Below, piece by piece: positions 8,801 through 62,600 of a DNA stretch of 64,000 nt. The notes beneath the pieces were generated by a model. The model was not told where the DNA came from and did no database searches. It worked only from the letters and a program-made list of their open reading frames with translations. Both the position numbers and the translations under genes were made by a program. The first letter of the stretch is position 1. Each line of letters opens with the position of its first letter. The stretch lies in NCBI RefSeq assembly GCF_001402915.1, contig NZ_CP012945.1:2581501-2645500 (forward strand). The letters are read 5' to 3'. The DNA comes from Devosia sp. A16. GTDB lineage: Bacteria > Pseudomonadota > Alphaproteobacteria > Rhizobiales > Devosiaceae.

Positions 8801-9069
8801 CTCAGGTAGGTCCGCACCACGTCGATCAGTTCCTCGCCACCCTGCCGGCGTTCGGCTTCTCCGGCTGGCGCCAGCACATGGTGGGTGATGTGCTCTTCGA
8901 TCAGCTCGGCAGTGAGCCCGGTCACGGCGCCGCGCACCGAAGCAACCAGCTGCAGGATTTCCGGACAGCCCAGCTCGGCCTCGAGCGCCCGCTCCACCGC
9001 CTCCACCTGCCCCTTGATCCGTCGCACCCGCGCCAGCAGCGCAGCCTTGTGTTTCGTCGTATGGCTCAT
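8797..9069 (-). CDS. dmeR: Metal-sensing repressor, RcnR/CsoR family (DmeR-like)
   Basis: A 90-residue all-helical repressor of the DUF156 family. The ligand set H3, C35, H60, H64 is the one that defines the Ni/Co sensor RcnR, and not the Cys-His-Cys set of copper sensors; I counted these positions directly. It is expected to release the operator at 9076-9099 when Co or Ni is bound, derepressing itself and dmeF, with which its stop codon overlaps. Confidence 0.92.
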   Translation of the reverse strand: MSHTTKHKAALLARVRRIKGQVEAVERALEAELGCPEILQLVASVRGAVTGLTAELIEEHITHHVLAPAGEAERRQGGEELIDVVRTYLR

Positions 9070-9075
9070 GGCCGA

Positions 9076-9099
9076 ATAGTATAGGGGGGTACCCTATAT
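9076..9099. promoter_or_regulatory. Probable DmeR/RcnR-type operator
   Basis: A six-G tract (GGGGGG) is flanked by ATAGTATA on the left and TACCCTATAT on the right, seven bases upstream of the dmeR start. RcnR/CsoR-family tetramers bind such G-tract sites flanked by A/T-rich inverted repeats. The position fits autorepression of dmeRF. Confidence 0.75.
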
Positions 9100-9129
9100 G
9101 GCAAGCCAGGCTGCGCGCTCGTTCTTGAT

Positions 9130-9245
9130 CGGGATGGCGGGTGGGATCCGGCGAGGCGACAGCTTGCGCTGTCACCGGCGTCGTGCCGCCTCGCACCCCC
9201 ACCGAGCTGCGCTAGCTCGCTAACGCTCCCAAGCTTCGCTTGCCT
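9130..9245. repeat. Left part of palindromic repeat interrupted by the first IS110 element
   Basis: This contains several short inverted repeats (ACAGCTTGCGCTGT, GAGCTGCGCTAGCTC, AAGCTTCGCTT) and stops abruptly at GCTTGCCT, where the insertion element begins. The matching right part resumes at 10367 with CCCCCCTCAAAGGGGAGG. A related, uninterrupted copy occurs in the opposite orientation at 32785-32850. Confidence 0.7.
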
Positions 9246-9422
9246 TGTAACTTGGACTCATCCGCATCTGATAAAGTTCCAGGTGCGGTGAGCCGCAGCA
9301 GTACGACGCTTGCCTGGGTGTTGGAGCCCGTGGGGGAGCGGGTTTCGCTGCGGCTCGATCCATTGATCCCGAACAGTCGCTTGGGCCGCTTGGCGAGCCC
9401 GTTTGCGCAAGGATGGGAGGCA
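9246..9422 (+). ncRNA. Predicted IS110 bridge RNA (left-end non-coding region)
   Basis: The 177 bases before the transposase contain four guide-like matches in the expected order. CGCTTGCCT (9307-9315) equals the left flank plus core (9237-9245). GGGGGAG (9332-9338) is the reverse complement of the right flank CTCCCCC (10365-10371). ACAGTCGCT (9373-9381) equals the right end of the element (10358-10366). CAAG (9408-9411) complements the left-end start CTTG. A GGG...CCC hairpin separates each pair. Known IS110 bridge RNAs carry a target loop and a donor loop of this kind. Confidence 0.8.
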
Positions 9423-10349
9423 ATGGAGATCACCGTAGGTATCGACGTGAGCAAGGACCGGCTGGATGTGTTCGTGCATCCGTCCGGAGAACGGTTGGCC
9501 GTGGACAATGAGGCGGCCGGGATCGAGGTGCTGGTGGCGCGGTTGCGGGCCATCGGAGCCGACGGCATCGGGCTGGAAGGCACCGGCGGGCTCGAGAAGC
9601 TGGCGGTGGCCGAACTGGCGGCGGCCGGGTTGCCGGTACTGGTGCTCAACCCCGCGCAGGTGCGGCACTATGCACAGGCGGAAGGTAAGCGGGCCAAGAC
9701 CGATCGCATCGACGCAGCGGTGATCGCCCGGTTCCTTGCCGCCACCAAGCCCCAGTTGCGCCCGCTGGCCGATGCCGAAACGGTACTGCTCGGCGAACTG
9801 ATGGCGCGACGCCGGCAACTGGTCGGCATGCTGGTCGCCGAGAAGAACCGACACGCCCGCGCTGCGGGCCGGATCAAAACCAGCATCGCTCGCATCATCA
9901 AGGCGCTGAACGACGAACTGGCATCCCTCGACGACGACCTCGACACCGCCATCCGCAGCTCGCCGGCCTGGCGCCATAAGGAGAACCTGCTGGCGTCGGT
10001 TCCCGGCGTCGGCAAGATCATCTCCCGCACGCTGATGGCCGAACTGCCCGAACTGGGCCAGCTCGATCGGCGCACCATCGCAGCGCTGTGCGGCCTGGCT
10101 CCCTTCACCCGCCAGTCCGGTCGATGGCGTGGCAATAGCATGATCGCAGGCGGCCGACCCGAACCCCGGGCCGCGCTCTTCATCGGCGCCCTCGTCGCAG
10201 CCCGTCACAACCCGGTGTTCAAAGCCTTCACCAACCGTCTCATCGAAGCCGGAAAACCAAAACGCGTCGCCCTCATCGCCTGCGCTCGAAAACTCCTCAC
10301 CATCCTCAACGCCATCATTCGGGACAACAAGCCATGGCAAACCGCTTGA
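9423..10349 (+). CDS. IS110-family transposase (DEDD recombinase)
   Basis: A 308-residue RNA-guided recombinase. The N-terminal RuvC-like DEDD domain shows D8 (GIDVSKD), E52 (LEGTG), D94 and D97 (KTDRIDA). The C-terminal Transposase_20 domain has the helix-hairpin segment ASVPGVGKI and the probable catalytic serine S232 in RQSGRWRG. ATG at 9423 follows GGGAGG; longer readings would run into the structured left end and are not favoured. It is clearly diverged from the transposase at 24996-25934. All key residues are intact, so it may be active. Confidence 0.93.
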   Translation: MEITVGIDVSKDRLDVFVHPSGERLAVDNEAAGIEVLVARLRAIGADGIGLEGTGGLEKLAVAELAAAGLPVLVLNPAQVRHYAQAEGKRAKTDRIDAAVIARFLAATKPQLRPLADAETVLLGELMARRRQLVGMLVAEKNRHARAAGRIKTSIARIIKALNDELASLDDDLDTAIRSSPAWRHKENLLASVPGVGKIISRTLMAELPELGQLDRRTIAALCGLAPFTRQSGRWRGNSMIAGGRPEPRAALFIGALVAARHNPVFKAFTNRLIEAGKPKRVALIACARKLLTILNAIIRDNKPWQTA

Positions 10350-10366
10350 CCAGCAACACAGTCGCT

Positions 10367-10460
10367 CCCCCCTCAAAGGGGAGGTGGGCCGCTGCCTGTG
10401 ATCTGCGAGTGCCCAACGCTGGATCGGCACCCTCCCCTTGACGGGGAGGGATGGGGTGGG
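10367..10460. repeat. Right part of the palindromic repeat split by IS110 copy 1
   Basis: This starts CCCCCCTCAAAGGGGAGGTGG and contains a second stem, CCCTCCCC TTGAC GGGGAGGG. It fills the gap between the IS and the end of uxuA. Confidence 0.7.
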
Positions 10461-10498
10461 GTGTGCAGCGCGCTCGATGTTGAAGCAGGCAGCGGGCG

Positions 10499-11548
10499 TC
10501 AAGCCTTGCCCAGAAACTCCGCCATGCGGATCAGCCCCTGCATGTAGCCGATGGCATGCGAGCGGCCGCGGTGGTTCCAGTCGCTGTCGCCGTCCATCTT
10601 GGGCACGTGGTCGTCGAGCAGGAAGCCGTCGAAACCGTTCTTGGCGAGCAGCACGATGACTTCCGCCGGATCGAAATTGCCGTCGCCGATGAAGCACTCG
10701 ACGAAGTTCGGCACCGAGCCCTTCACATCGCGGAAATGGATGTAGGAAATGCGCCCCTTGGGAGCGAAATACTCGATCATCTCGGTGACGTTCTGCTTGC
10801 CGCCTTCCATCTCCGAGCAGCAGCCGAGGCAGAGATCGAGCGTCCAGGCCTCCGAGCGGCCAACCAGGTCATAGGCCTTCTTGAAGTTCTCGGGCTTGTA
10901 GAACAGCCGCGCCACGCCGCCCAGCATCGGCACCGGCGGGTCGTCGGGATGCAGCGCCAGCTTCAGCCCTTCTTCCTCGGCCACCGGCAGCACCGCCTTC
11001 ATGAAATACTCGTAGTTGCTCCACATCTGCGCTTCGGTGATCAGCGGGCCGTCCTTGCCGAACAGCGGCATCGAGGAGGCGCGGCCCAGCGTCGTCGGCA
11101 TGAACGAGCGCAGCAGCTCGAGGTTGTCGATATTGGCTTCGACCACCGCCATGTCGAACTGGCGGGCCACGGCGCCGCCGCGGGTCGCCGCGTCGCGCTT
11201 GGTGGTCCACACCGAATTGGGCATGAAGTGCAGGCCCAGCACCGGAATGCCGGCGCGCGCCACGGCGCGGATCGTATGCTGGTAGTTCTCGATCTGCTCG
11301 TCGCGGCCGTCGAGCCCCATCATCGCCTTGTGGTAGAAATGCGTGGGGACGTTCTCGATCGCCTCGAACTTGAGGCCCGCAGCTTCCACCTGGTCGACCA
11401 GCGCCCGAACATCCTTCTGTTCCCAGCGGCTGTCGCCGGGCAGCGTCGGGTTGTTCATCTGCAACCCGGTGGCGCCGATCTGCGCCGCAAAGCGGAGCCG
11501 TTCTTCGCTCAGTTCGTGGAACTGGCCTACCGCAACCCTGATACCCAT
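10499..11548 (-). CDS. uxuA: Mannonate dehydratase UxuA
   Basis: A 349-residue TIM-barrel enzyme converting D-mannonate to 2-keto-3-deoxygluconate, the last step before KDG kinase in the Ashwell hexuronate pathway. The family's metal ligands occur in order: His in LALHPDDPP, Cys in LDLCLGC, His in YIHFRDVKG, and Asp in LLDDHVPKMDGD. It is the last gene of a minus-strand run SBP-permease-permease-uxuA, suggesting that the transporter imports a glucuronide or hexuronate-derived compound. It is unrelated in fold class to the enolase-superfamily ManD at 4312. Confidence 0.93.
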   Translation of the reverse strand: MGIRVAVGQFHELSEERLRFAAQIGATGLQMNNPTLPGDSRWEQKDVRALVDQVEAAGLKFEAIENVPTHFYHKAMMGLDGRDEQIENYQHTIRAVARAGIPVLGLHFMPNSVWTTKRDAATRGGAVARQFDMAVVEANIDNLELLRSFMPTTLGRASSMPLFGKDGPLITEAQMWSNYEYFMKAVLPVAEEEGLKLALHPDDPPVPMLGGVARLFYKPENFKKAYDLVGRSEAWTLDLCLGCCSEMEGGKQNVTEMIEYFAPKGRISYIHFRDVKGSVPNFVECFIGDGNFDPAEVIVLLAKNGFDGFLLDDHVPKMDGDSDWNHRGRSHAIGYMQGLIRMAEFLGKA

Positions 11549-24937: not shown

Positions 24938-24995
24938 GGCGTTCGCCGAGAGCGGGACACTTGCGTCCCTCTCCCCTGAGCAACCGTGTTTGAAG

Positions 24996-25934
24996 TCAAG
25001 CTGGGCTTGGGATCCAAGGTGCGTCGTTTGCGAGGATGGCGTTTGCGGTCGTGAGCAGCTTTCGCATGGCGGCGACGATGGCCAGCTTTGCCGGTTTGCC
25101 TTGGCTGCGGAGCCTTTGATAGAAGGTTTTGATGGGTGGGTTGGCGCGGATGGCTGAGATTGTGGCCATGTAGAGGGCGCAGCGCACCGACAATCGACCG
25201 CCCGCGATATGAGCTTGGCCTCGCATCTGGCCGCTGTCGTGCACGAAGGGCGCCACCCCCGCCAGAGCTGCTGCCTGCTTGTTACCGATGCTGCCCAACT
25301 CGGGCATCTCGGCGATGAGTACGGCTGCCGTGACCCGGCCGATGCCGGGAATGGAGGCCAGCAGTTCGGCCCGGCGGTGCAGGCCGGCATGCTGCGCGAT
25401 GTGCTCGGTGATCTGCTTGTCGATGGCGGCGATCTGAGTACTCAGGAAGTCGATATGGGCCTTGATGCTGGCCTTGATCGTCTGGCCCTCGGGGTGCTCG
25501 CTGCGCTGCTTCTCCATGGCCAGCATGTCCACCATCTGCCGACGCCGACGTACCAGGTCGGTCAGCTCCAGGGCATAGGGATCGTGCGGATCGGGCTGTG
25601 GCTGCATGAGGCGAGCGAAGCGCAGGATGGCCTGCGCGTCAATCGCATCGGTCTTGGCCATCTGCCCGTCGGCACGGGCCAGATCCCTCACCCGGCGTGG
25701 GTTGACCTTGCTCAGGGCAATGCCGTGTTCGGCCAGTTCGCGAGCCATCAGTCGGGTATAGCTGCCAGTGGCTTCACACACCACGTGCGGCCGCCTCAGC
25801 GTCCCGAGCCGCACGATCAGGCGGCGCACCCCTGCCTGGGTATTGGGAATACGAAGCACCGCGGTCTCGACCATGGCCAGGTCCAGGTGCTGCTTGGATA
25901 CGTCGACGCTGACATAGTCGGGGGAAGCGATCAT
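24996..25934 (-). CDS. IS110-family transposase (DEDD recombinase)
   Basis: A 312-residue recombinase. The DEDD residues are D11 (SVDVSKQ), E54 (VCEATG), D96 and D99 (KTDAIDA). The C-terminal Transposase_20 domain shows ASIPGIGRV and the probable active serine in HDSGQMRG. It is intact but only distantly similar to the transposase at 9423, so the two copies are different IS110 members, not duplicates. Confidence 0.93.
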   Translation of the reverse strand: MIASPDYVSVDVSKQHLDLAMVETAVLRIPNTQAGVRRLIVRLGTLRRPHVVCEATGSYTRLMARELAEHGIALSKVNPRRVRDLARADGQMAKTDAIDAQAILRFARLMQPQPDPHDPYALELTDLVRRRRQMVDMLAMEKQRSEHPEGQTIKASIKAHIDFLSTQIAAIDKQITEHIAQHAGLHRRAELLASIPGIGRVTAAVLIAEMPELGSIGNKQAAALAGVAPFVHDSGQMRGQAHIAGGRLSVRCALYMATISAIRANPPIKTFYQRLRSQGKPAKLAIVAAMRKLLTTANAILANDAPWIPSPA

Positions 25935-26127
25935 GATGCTCTGCCTTGTATGCGGGCCCGAAGCCCAACCAACCGTTCGAGATCGTCACGAAGGGCCGGA
26001 GGCGTACGCTCAAGGACGAGCTCGAACGCTCAGGGGAGACACACGCCCCCCGACCACAGGCCCCGGAAAAACACCAGAACCTGCAGGGTCAGATCTGATC
26101 ACTATCGACCCACAAACGGAACATACA
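25935..26127 (-). ncRNA. Predicted IS110 bridge RNA of copy 2
   Basis: Minus-strand non-coding left end, 193 bases. TCTCCCCT (26039-26032) equals the left flank plus core (26135-26128). CCTTGAG (26015-26009) pairs with the right flank CTCAGGG (24980-24974) through seven pairs, one of them G-U. ACGGTTG (25976-25970) equals the element's right end (24987-24981). CATACAAG (25952-25945) is the exact complement of its left-end start CTTGTATG. Between target guides lies a 14-base GAGC...GCTC hairpin, the same spacing as in copy 1. Confidence 0.8.
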
Positions 26128-59629: not shown

Positions 59630-62600
59630 TTAACGTCTCGCCGACTTCATTGCCTCAGTGATCGCCACCGTCTCCATGCTCACCCGCGTCACTCGCCCGA
59701 TCAAGTCGATCACGGTCTCTTTGTAGTCGACAAAGCGATAGGTGTTGAACTTCTCGCGGATCGTCGGGTCCTTGGGTGTCTTCTCCTTATACTGATCGAG
59801 CACCCATTCGATCCCTGAGCGATTGCCCAGCCGGTAGGTCCATGCCTGCTCTGGTACTCCGGTTAGCACCGTTTCGCCGTCGAGTTGGATCGAACCGCTA
59901 CCTTTGTCCGCCTTCAGTATCGCCTTCGACGCCAAGCCTGCCGCCCGAGACTGCTCGTCGCGCACCTCAAGGCGCTTCAGGGGCCATGGCTCGACGTTCT
60001 CGTAGCCAATGTGTAGAGCCATCAGCGCCTCGCCCCACCCTGCCCACTTCCAGAAGTCGCGGTAAAACGGAACGCGGGGCAACTCACGCTTCAGGTTCAG
60101 CGCATATTTCTCACGATAGACTGGATCGTGCAGCACGGCGTAGGCGAAGTTGAAAATATCGTCCTTGGTGAGTTGCCGCCGCCCTTTCTTCACATCCTCC
60201 GTCGGAGAAGTTGCATCAGCCACGGCAGAGGCTGTCTCTACCTCGGAATCGCCATCCCTGACCCCACCACCACGAGTGGGGTCAAGCACTCCGTTCATTC
60301 CGTACGCCTTTTGGAACTGCCTGAGTCCCCAGTCGGTGATATTGTCGATACGCGTGCCGCCGGTGGTGTAGCGATACAATGGGAAAGCGAAGGTGCCCCC
60401 GTTGCCTTGTTTGAGGTATCCAAGGTCGATCACCAGTTCGCTAGCAAGTGTTGCAAGAGGCTTGTCCGAGTCGAGGCTGTAAACGTTAATAGATTTGTTC
60501 TCGCCGATTCCTGCCGTAGGGAATATTGACCGTTGGGAATAGTGCCTGTGAACAACCAGTTCATGGTAGTTCACATTCCGCTTTACGAACGGACGGTAAT
60601 TCACGACTCCGTTTTTGAGCGGCTCCATCACCAATTTTATGCCGTCGCGCGCAGATTTTTCCAGCTCGGAGTTCCACTTTATGCTGGTATCAAAATCGGC
60701 GAAAGACGTGGGCGCCCGAGTACCTAGATGCCGATTGTACACGTCGCTGAAGTAGGTGGCTTTCTCTTGGAGCTCACGAACTGAGCTGGCGTATGCCCAC
60801 TCGTCGCGGTTGGTACCCAATCCAAGCGAGAAGACCTTGAACAAGGCGCGCTCTCTAGAGGGCAAGGCCGTCGCCTTGGTCTCCTTGGTTCCGAGTGGCA
60901 AAAATTCGTCCCATGGGTTCTCGGCCAAGTCGATCCAGTTGTTGCTGGCATCTGGCTCTATGCGCTCAAAATGGAGGCTATCCGGGCGCGTATTCGCCAG
61001 AAAGGTCAGTTTCTCCTCCGCAGTGTCTAGTTCCGGCCTTCGTGCATAGTAAATGCGGCCGCCGCCCCGACCTCCTTTCCTCACAAGGAAGGAGATCGCG
61101 ACGCCGGTCTGAATGCCGAACACGTTGTTCTTTGTACCTGAAAGCTTTGGGTTAGATCGGACGTCGCCACCAAGATCTACCACGTAGATCTCAGCGAACT
61201 CGTTCGCCACCACCTTTCGGAACCCGTCGAACGTCCGGCTGTCGATGAAACTGCGGTTGGTCACATATGCCAAGACCCCCTCATCGCCCAGCCGATCGCT
61301 TGCCCAGCGGAAGAACCGGGCATACATGTCATAAACCTTAGTTTTCTGGGCTGTACTCTGCGCGATGTAGGTTGCTTTGATCAACTCGTCTACATGTGGA
61401 TATGTTCGGTTCTTGTTGTTGTCGTTCTCGTTCTGCTGGTTGGCGTTGTAGGGCGGGTTTCCGATTATTACAGAAATCTTGCGTCGGTTTTGCCGCTTCA
61501 CGCGCTCGATGTTCTCGTCCGAAAGGCCGGCGAACAGGTCGTGCTGGTGCCCCCGCCTGATACCCAGTCCGCCGACGTTGTCCAGAGTGTCCACAAAGCA
61601 CAGGTTCGAGAACTCGGCATATTGCCCAGTGATAGCGGCGTAGGTCGCCTCGATGTTTAGGTTTGCGACGTAATAAGGCAGGATCGCCACCTCGTTGGCG
61701 TGCAAATCCTCTTTGTATTTCCGAGTCAACTTCTGCGGTTGCCCGCGGAAATGCTCCAATAGTTCGCAAATGAAGGTGCCAGTACCCGTCGCTGGGTCAA
61801 GGATTTCGACCCCTTCGTCGATCAGAGCTTTGTCGAAATGCTTCTGCGTCAGCCAATCCGCGCCTTCGATCATGAACTTCACGATCTCATTGGGCGTGTA
61901 AACGACACCCAGTCGGTCGGCCTTCTTCTCATCGTATACTTTGTAGAAATTCTCGTAGATAACCTTGAGAAATGTCTGCTTTTCGCTGTGCTTGGTGATT
62001 AGTGCTGCAGTGGAACGTATCGTTGCGTAGTACGGTTGGATCGCCGCCAACGTGTCGCGCTTCACAGCTCCTGTAAAAAACTCCGCTTCCAGCGCATAAA
62101 GTTCCTTGGCAATGTTGTTATCGCGGTGGAAGTCGCCCTCATTAAAGACATGCGCAAAGATCTCTTCAGTCAAAATATGCTGAATCAACATCTCGCGCAC
62201 ATCCGCTTCACCAAGCGTCGGGTTGATCGTGTCGCGGGCATGCGCCAGAAACCTGTTCGCTGCGGCCTTAAAGCCAGCGTTGCCCGAATACGCCACATCA
62301 ATCTTGTCACGCAGAGCCGATAGTACGGCCGGCAGGTCGGTCTTGAACTGCTTTACCGCCTTGCGGAACTCAGCGATCTCCGCACGCTCGTGCGTGAAAA
62401 ACAAGTTGAGGAGACGCAGCAATTCGTCCGCGTCGGTCATCCGGCACCGCATCACCTCTACGCGATCCTGGATCAACACGGCTACGCGCGAGTCCTCGAA
62501 GACGATGTTGTCTTGTGGATAGCCCTTCCTAAGCTTTTTCTCGATCTCCACATCGAGGTCGTCTGCCTCGTCCTTGGCTTCCCAATACCCGAGGGGAACG

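Follow-up and report, generated by a model that had tools for sequence, protein, structure and literature searches.

An IS110-group insertion sequence of Devosia with a probable bridge RNA whose guide words match its insertion site

The element and its target repeat

In the window analysed here, 64,000 nucleotides of the genome of Devosia sp. A16 (contig NZ_CP012945.1, positions 2,581,501 to 2,645,500), an IS110-group element occupies positions 9246 to 10366 of the forward strand, and the original prediction, made from the sequence alone, had placed it correctly to the base. The element measures 1121 bp, runs from TGTAACTT to ACAGTCGCT and has a CT core in common with its target. The genome holds three copies of 1121 bp each, with one base difference among all three, and every copy interrupts a palindromic repeat, GCTTGC-CT-CCCCC, at one and the same position, with a left flank that ends in CGCTTGCCT and a right flank that starts with CTCCCCC. 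The ends of the element are fixed because repeats without insertion occur, both in the same genome and, in a diverged form, in the genome G091; the repeat is restored when the element is removed and there is no target duplication beyond the core.

The element encodes a DEDD transposase/recombinase of 308 aa (9423 to 10349, forward strand) with the domains PF01548 (84.8 bits) and PF02371 (61.9 bits). Its only PDB matches are IS621 (8wt6, E = 1.3e-29) and ISCro4 (9t56, 6.1e-29); the IS621 alignment (106.9 bits) spans residues 5-306 and pairs D8, E52, D94, D97 and S232 with the IS621 catalytic residues, the roles of which are reported in PMC11208158. The non-coding ends are long on the left (177 nt upstream of the transposase) and short on the right (17 nt past the stop codon), and no inverted word shared by the first 40 and the last 40 nt of the element is longer than 4 nt. 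The DEDD RuvC-like domain, the Transposase_20 domain at the C-terminus with its catalytic serine, the long upstream non-coding end and the lack of long terminal inverted repeats are those of the IS110 group. The features of the IS1111 group, in which the RNA lies downstream of the transposase, are not found: the RNA region lies upstream, in the left end, the right non-coding end is short and long inverted repeats are absent.

The target repeat of the window copy is intergenic. Its left part covers 9202 to 9245 (forward strand; bases 9200-9245 match many places in the genome) and its right part, CCCCCCTCAAAGGGGAGG, covers 10367 to 10384 (forward strand), as delimited by the uninterrupted repeats of the same genome and by matches in Devosia genomes. 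A gene for a metal-sensitive repressor (PF02583; 8797-9069, reverse strand) starts 177 bp from the element, and the open reading frame beside it resembles, by eye, a cation-diffusion transporter; the insertion may thus lie near a metal-response promoter. Matches covering the target repeat were found in at least 13 of the 19 Devosia genomes, own included, among the matches listed. The 14-mer target CGCTTGCCTCCCCC occurs in the own genome in 10 exact and 18 one-mismatch copies, and the reversed control in none. Of the 19 genomes of the genus, four contain exact copies: the own genome has 10, G088 has 17, and G095 and G099 have two apiece. When one mismatch is permitted the 14-mer is found in 17 of the 19, but low counts of this kind are near chance because the reversed control also matches in many genomes. 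Three target repeats lie within about 640 bp of the own genome (G000:C1 285,280-285,925), none of them carrying an insertion, and in G088 the element was not found, so that its 17 exact sites are apparently unused.

Two corresponding loci were recovered from other genomes. At the G091 locus with the same right-hand gene (L135) the repeat is uninterrupted and has diverged to GCTTGGCTCCCGTC; the match of the left-hand gene lies some 3.5 kb away. In a probable D. insulae genome the corresponding locus (L136 1388-1500; G086:C235:19808-19920) contains a 113-bp remnant of the element, which consists of the 5' stem-loop and the target loop only and has one change in the left guide (CGCTTACCT). It shares 98% of its bases with the window copy, as compared to 93% (left, 60 bases) and 82% (right) for the flanks, and this greater similarity of the remnant suggests parallel insertion at one site. 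The remnant also raised the idea of a family of solo-RNA elements that lack a transposase, which was dropped, as it is the only true remnant seen: nine other partial copies were examined beside it (L144, L150, L154-L156, L168, L170, L172 and L173; four listed partial copies of G106 were left out) and all of them run to a contig end or stop no more than 3 bases from one.

Guide words and predicted structure of the non-coding end

The non-coding end carries four words that match the junctions of the element, all on the forward strand, and each of the matches that had been claimed for them was recovered. The left target guide with the core, CGCTTGCCT (9307 to 9315), is identical to the bases at the left junction (9237-9245), and the right target guide with the complement of the core, GGGGGAG (9332 to 9338), is the reverse complement of the right junction (10365-10371); in relatives both covary with the flanks (see below). 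The left donor guide, ACAGTCGCT (9373 to 9381), repeats the right end of the element (10358-10366), and the right donor guide, CAAG (9408 to 9411), pairs with CTTG at 9244-9247, a match of only 4 nt that makes it the weakest part of the set. The order of the words, target loop before donor loop, and the CT core agree with the IS621 model as had been proposed; PMC11208160 and PMC11208158 describe this order and this core for that model, and also that both strands are used, as they are here. Within the family the donor guides and the element ends are invariant, and ACAGTCGC of the left donor guide is unchanged in all 29 aligned members.

The region from 9246 to 9420 (forward strand) would contain a bridge RNA with a 5' stem-loop, a target-binding loop and a donor-binding loop. 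It scores 167.1 bits with the covariance model R1, which was built from 29 family members including this element; an Rfam search of 9000-10600 returned matches at chance level only (mir-207, gabT). In the structure that we named, 94.8% of the cells of the 29 sequences are paired, as compared to 36-46% in slid versions, a percentage that leans towards the named structure since the structure was named with the same sequences in view. Pairs with double changes number 13, against 7.3 in shuffles, and the lower target-loop stem has them at 10 of its 11 pairs; the upper target-loop stem is paired in only 84.5% of the cells. The donor-loop stems are nearly invariant: helix 5 has no pair that changed on both sides and helix 4 has one, seen only in L103 and L107 of a single genome. 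The target loop is therefore strongly supported and the donor loop weakly. The 5' stem-loop stands outside the score, its arms being poorly aligned by MAFFT. An RNAalifold consensus on a shorter alignment (A2), from which the 3' strand was missing, for that reason misplaced the donor loop, and the longer alignment A3 was used instead. In columns 64-74 of A3 the relatives differ by 0-2 nt in where the left-guide core lies with respect to the upper stem; the register of the right guide is fixed.

Matches outside internal loops would have been at odds with the bridge RNA model, and this is not what the family shows: both target guides fall in the internal loop of the target-loop stem, in a fold supported by covariation among the 29 members. 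The minimum-energy fold of the single sequence does not place them there: in it the target guides are in part paired to one another.

Guides, flanks and cutting register among relatives

Relatives were collected from genomes and plasmids. At E values of 1e-60 or better they occur in 5 of 136 genomes of the family Devosiaceae; with the stricter limit of 1e-75, 6 of 397 genomes of the order and 3 of 385 of the class contain them, the own genome being included in each count. The element family is sparse, and its best match among named relatives is Devosia insulae DS-56, at 99%. The ends of the relatives are conserved (TGTAACTT, ACAGTCGCT) and their flanks differ. The 37 elements for which both flanks were available were reduced to 21 distinct guide pairs, each represented by a single flank. 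Beyond the core, right guides agreed with their own flank at 4.76 of 5 bases and with the flanks of others at 2.76 of 5; for the left guide these values were 4.38 and 3.15 of 6, with three core registers permitted for own and others' flanks alike. None of 100,000 permutations reached a value as high as that of either guide, and the result was the same on a subset of 15 guides with differences at more than 3 of their 11 positions. The own flank was the best or tied for 18 of the 21 right guides and 9 of the 21 left guides; several left guides match at 3 of 6 bases, and the left-guide signal is weaker than the right. Shifting the register of the right guide lowered the matched fraction from 0.95 to 0.37-0.61, and four relatives outside the test had right matches, by eye, of 5/5 (L116, L125, L113) and 4/5 (L085). 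The co-variation of the target words with the flanks that the bridge RNA model implies, and that the original prediction had put forward as a check, is thus present, strongly on the right and more weakly on the left. Nor do copies with the same ends lie at unrelated flanks: of ten left junctions from Devosia copies of the element, seven equal the guide over 9 nt and the other three deviate from it by 1-2 bases, L173 being one of these, with its guide itself off the contig.

The core was read at 42 left ends, of which 35 have CT and 6 have TT, one being cut off by a contig end. All right ends found read CT, a pattern that the search itself required; the right ends of L113 and L123 were missed at first, and upon re-examination that of L113 read CT and that of L123 was not found. 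The TT-core insertions belong to rhizobial relatives (L079, L080, L114, L115, L117 and L120), in which the left junction reads TT and the right one CT. Two of them have empty alleles: Rhizobium etli IE4803 has a 240-base stretch that lacks the L115 insertion and equals its joined flanks, and IE4771 has no insertion at the L114 site (90% identity). Both empty alleles read CACCTTCTCCCC. The TT core of the other four is known from the joined flanks only.

The least expected observation is that, in this rhizobial repeat, a shift of the insertion by 1 bp follows a change in the right guide, even with a TT core. L105 and L114/L115 have the same left-guide word, TGCACCTT, and differ in their right guides (GGAGAAG versus GGGAGAG); within the repeat CACCTTCTCCCC, L105 is inserted at CAC-CT-TCTCC and L114/L115 one base apart, at CACC-TT-CTCCC. 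Likewise, L105 and L060, with right guides ending in GAGAAG, are found at C-CT-TCTCC, and L114, L115, L117 and L120, with GGGAGAG, one base rightward. Of the ten tested elements with the GGGAGAG guide, six have TT at the left junction and four have CT (L078, L081, L102 and L119), the latter being located at other sequences. We consider it as likely as not that in this lineage the register of cutting depends on the right target guide only, even against the preference for a CT core. The combination of TT on the left and CT on the right can be read as the in vivo record that would be expected if the top strands are cut 3' of the core. This pattern agrees with the known mechanism, because IS621 is reported to be able to recombine at TT cores and to cut the top strand 3' of the core (PMC11208158).

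The genome contains further IS110 lineages. PF01548 was detected at 12 places: three belong to the element described here, five to lineage B/C, three to lineage D, and one partial match is part of a fourth lineage D copy. One lineage B element of 1149 bp, with a 40% identical protein and several copies in the genome, lies within the window (24979-26127, reverse strand), and its predicted bridge RNA (25936-26091) has exact donor guides. The covariance model of the family finds a bridge RNA upstream of the B/C (36 bits) and D (24 bits) transposases. Each of the nine B/C and D copies has a left donor guide identical over 7 bases to its own right end and a right donor guide that fits its own left junction over 8 bases, and in these lineages the left donor guide seems to have changed along with the right end; L013, for which a wrong right end was picked (136 bp), was left out of this comparison. 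The right target guide, taken as the core plus 5 bases, is matched in two of the five B/C copies and all four D copies. An exact 7- or 9-base left flank was found in the RNA of none of the nine, the best cases by eye being 8 of 9 bases (GTCTCCCCT versus CTCTCCCCT, TCTGACCCT versus CCTGACCCT). IS110-like RNA matches were also seen in the genomes G087, G096, G097 and G101.

Mechanism, alternatives and relation to known systems

The ends, the empty sites, the guide words, the covariation of guides with flanks and of the target-loop stem, and the conserved catalytic residues, all of which can be read from the DNA, argue that this is an IS110-group insertion sequence the 5' non-coding end of which encodes a bridge RNA (seekRNA), a reading to which we give a probability of about 0.95. 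We infer the following course. The element would leave as a circle, and from a promoter made up by its joined ends, TTGACC-17 nt-TAACTT, the bridge RNA would be transcribed; the recombinase would bind this RNA, and the top strands would be cut just 3' of the core and then exchanged, by which the element would be inserted without duplication. The candidate junction promoter draws on the right end that begins with TTGACC (10346 to 10366, forward strand), which in the circle would be 17 nt from the TAACTT of the left end. TTGA at this spacing is found in all 40 right ends and TTGAC in 38 of the 40, a conservation that in part has another cause, because in the window copy the TGA of TTGA doubles as the stop codon.

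Three other explanations were weighed against the bridge RNA. The element could be a site-specific IS110 member that finds the palindromic repeat by means of its protein only, in which case the guide-like words would be relics of that repeat within the element; the three copies of the own genome all lie in one repeat and hence by themselves cannot separate targeting by RNA from targeting by protein. Relatives with 53-67% identical proteins are inserted, though, at target words that differ and that fit the loops of their own RNAs, and the rhizobial relatives in one and the same repeat are inserted 1 bp apart, tracking the right guide, which makes protein-only recognition extremely unlikely. The matches could also have arisen by chance in a GC-rich region that abounds in CCCCC/GGGGG palindromes, and the right guide is indeed a low-complexity word: in 20,000 dinucleotide shuffles of 9246-9422 the 7-mer alone was encountered in 777 and the left 9-mer in 34. 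Yet both target words in order within 40 nt were found in none of these shuffles, and only once at mock junctions placed at 62,201 other positions of the window. Since the permutation of real flanks among real guides, which keeps the composition, refutes a chance origin, this explanation is barely credible.

The non-coding end might instead serve mainly as a regulatory leader of the transposase mRNA and be conserved for that reason. The structured end reaches, by eye, the likely ribosome-binding region, and for ISPpu9 small RNAs are reported to regulate the transposase of a REP-targeting insertion sequence (PMC8450116). A leader leaves the covariation of guides and flanks and the donor words unexplained, and we consider it very unlikely as the main function, but it could act in addition to a bridge RNA.

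As a bridge-RNA element, the Devosia element resembles IS621, also of the IS110 group, in its long 5' non-coding end, a target loop followed by a donor loop, the CT core, the catalytic residues, a palindromic-repeat (REP) target and the possible promoter across the circle junction. It differs in its distant protein, in its ends and guides, in a right donor guide of only 4 nt and in the placement of the core within the left guide, 0-2 nt from the upper stem among its relatives. It is also like the seekRNA elements, ISEc21 (IS110) and the IS1111 group, for which an RNA from the long non-coding region is reported to set the target, and, like ISEc21, it has a bottom-strand match before a top-strand match; natural reprogramming is reported for these elements as well (PMC11187229). 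ISMex17 of Methylorubrum (NZ_AP014814) has a 57% identical protein and the same ends and RNA architecture, but its guides and target (AGTAGCCT-CT-CACT) are different.

Published work already covers bridge RNAs, the covariation of guides and targets in thousands of IS110 elements, targets in REP sequences and natural reprogramming (PMC11208160, PMC11208158, PMC11187229, PMC1525189), and a full-text search of the available papers for Devosia and IS110 gave two, which to judge by their titles both concern soil or root microbial communities. The present case confirms a known mechanism, that of the bridge-RNA IS110 elements described in 2024, in a new lineage and with unusually clean evidence, and involves no new mechanism. 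It puts the bridge-RNA model to an independent natural test in a lineage remote from IS621, where guides can be set beside their targets and, for two relatives, beside empty alleles. A single Devosia genome holds three IS110 lineages, each with its own guides and inserted at GC-rich palindromes, and alphaproteobacterial recombinases with such legible guides are candidates for genome engineering.
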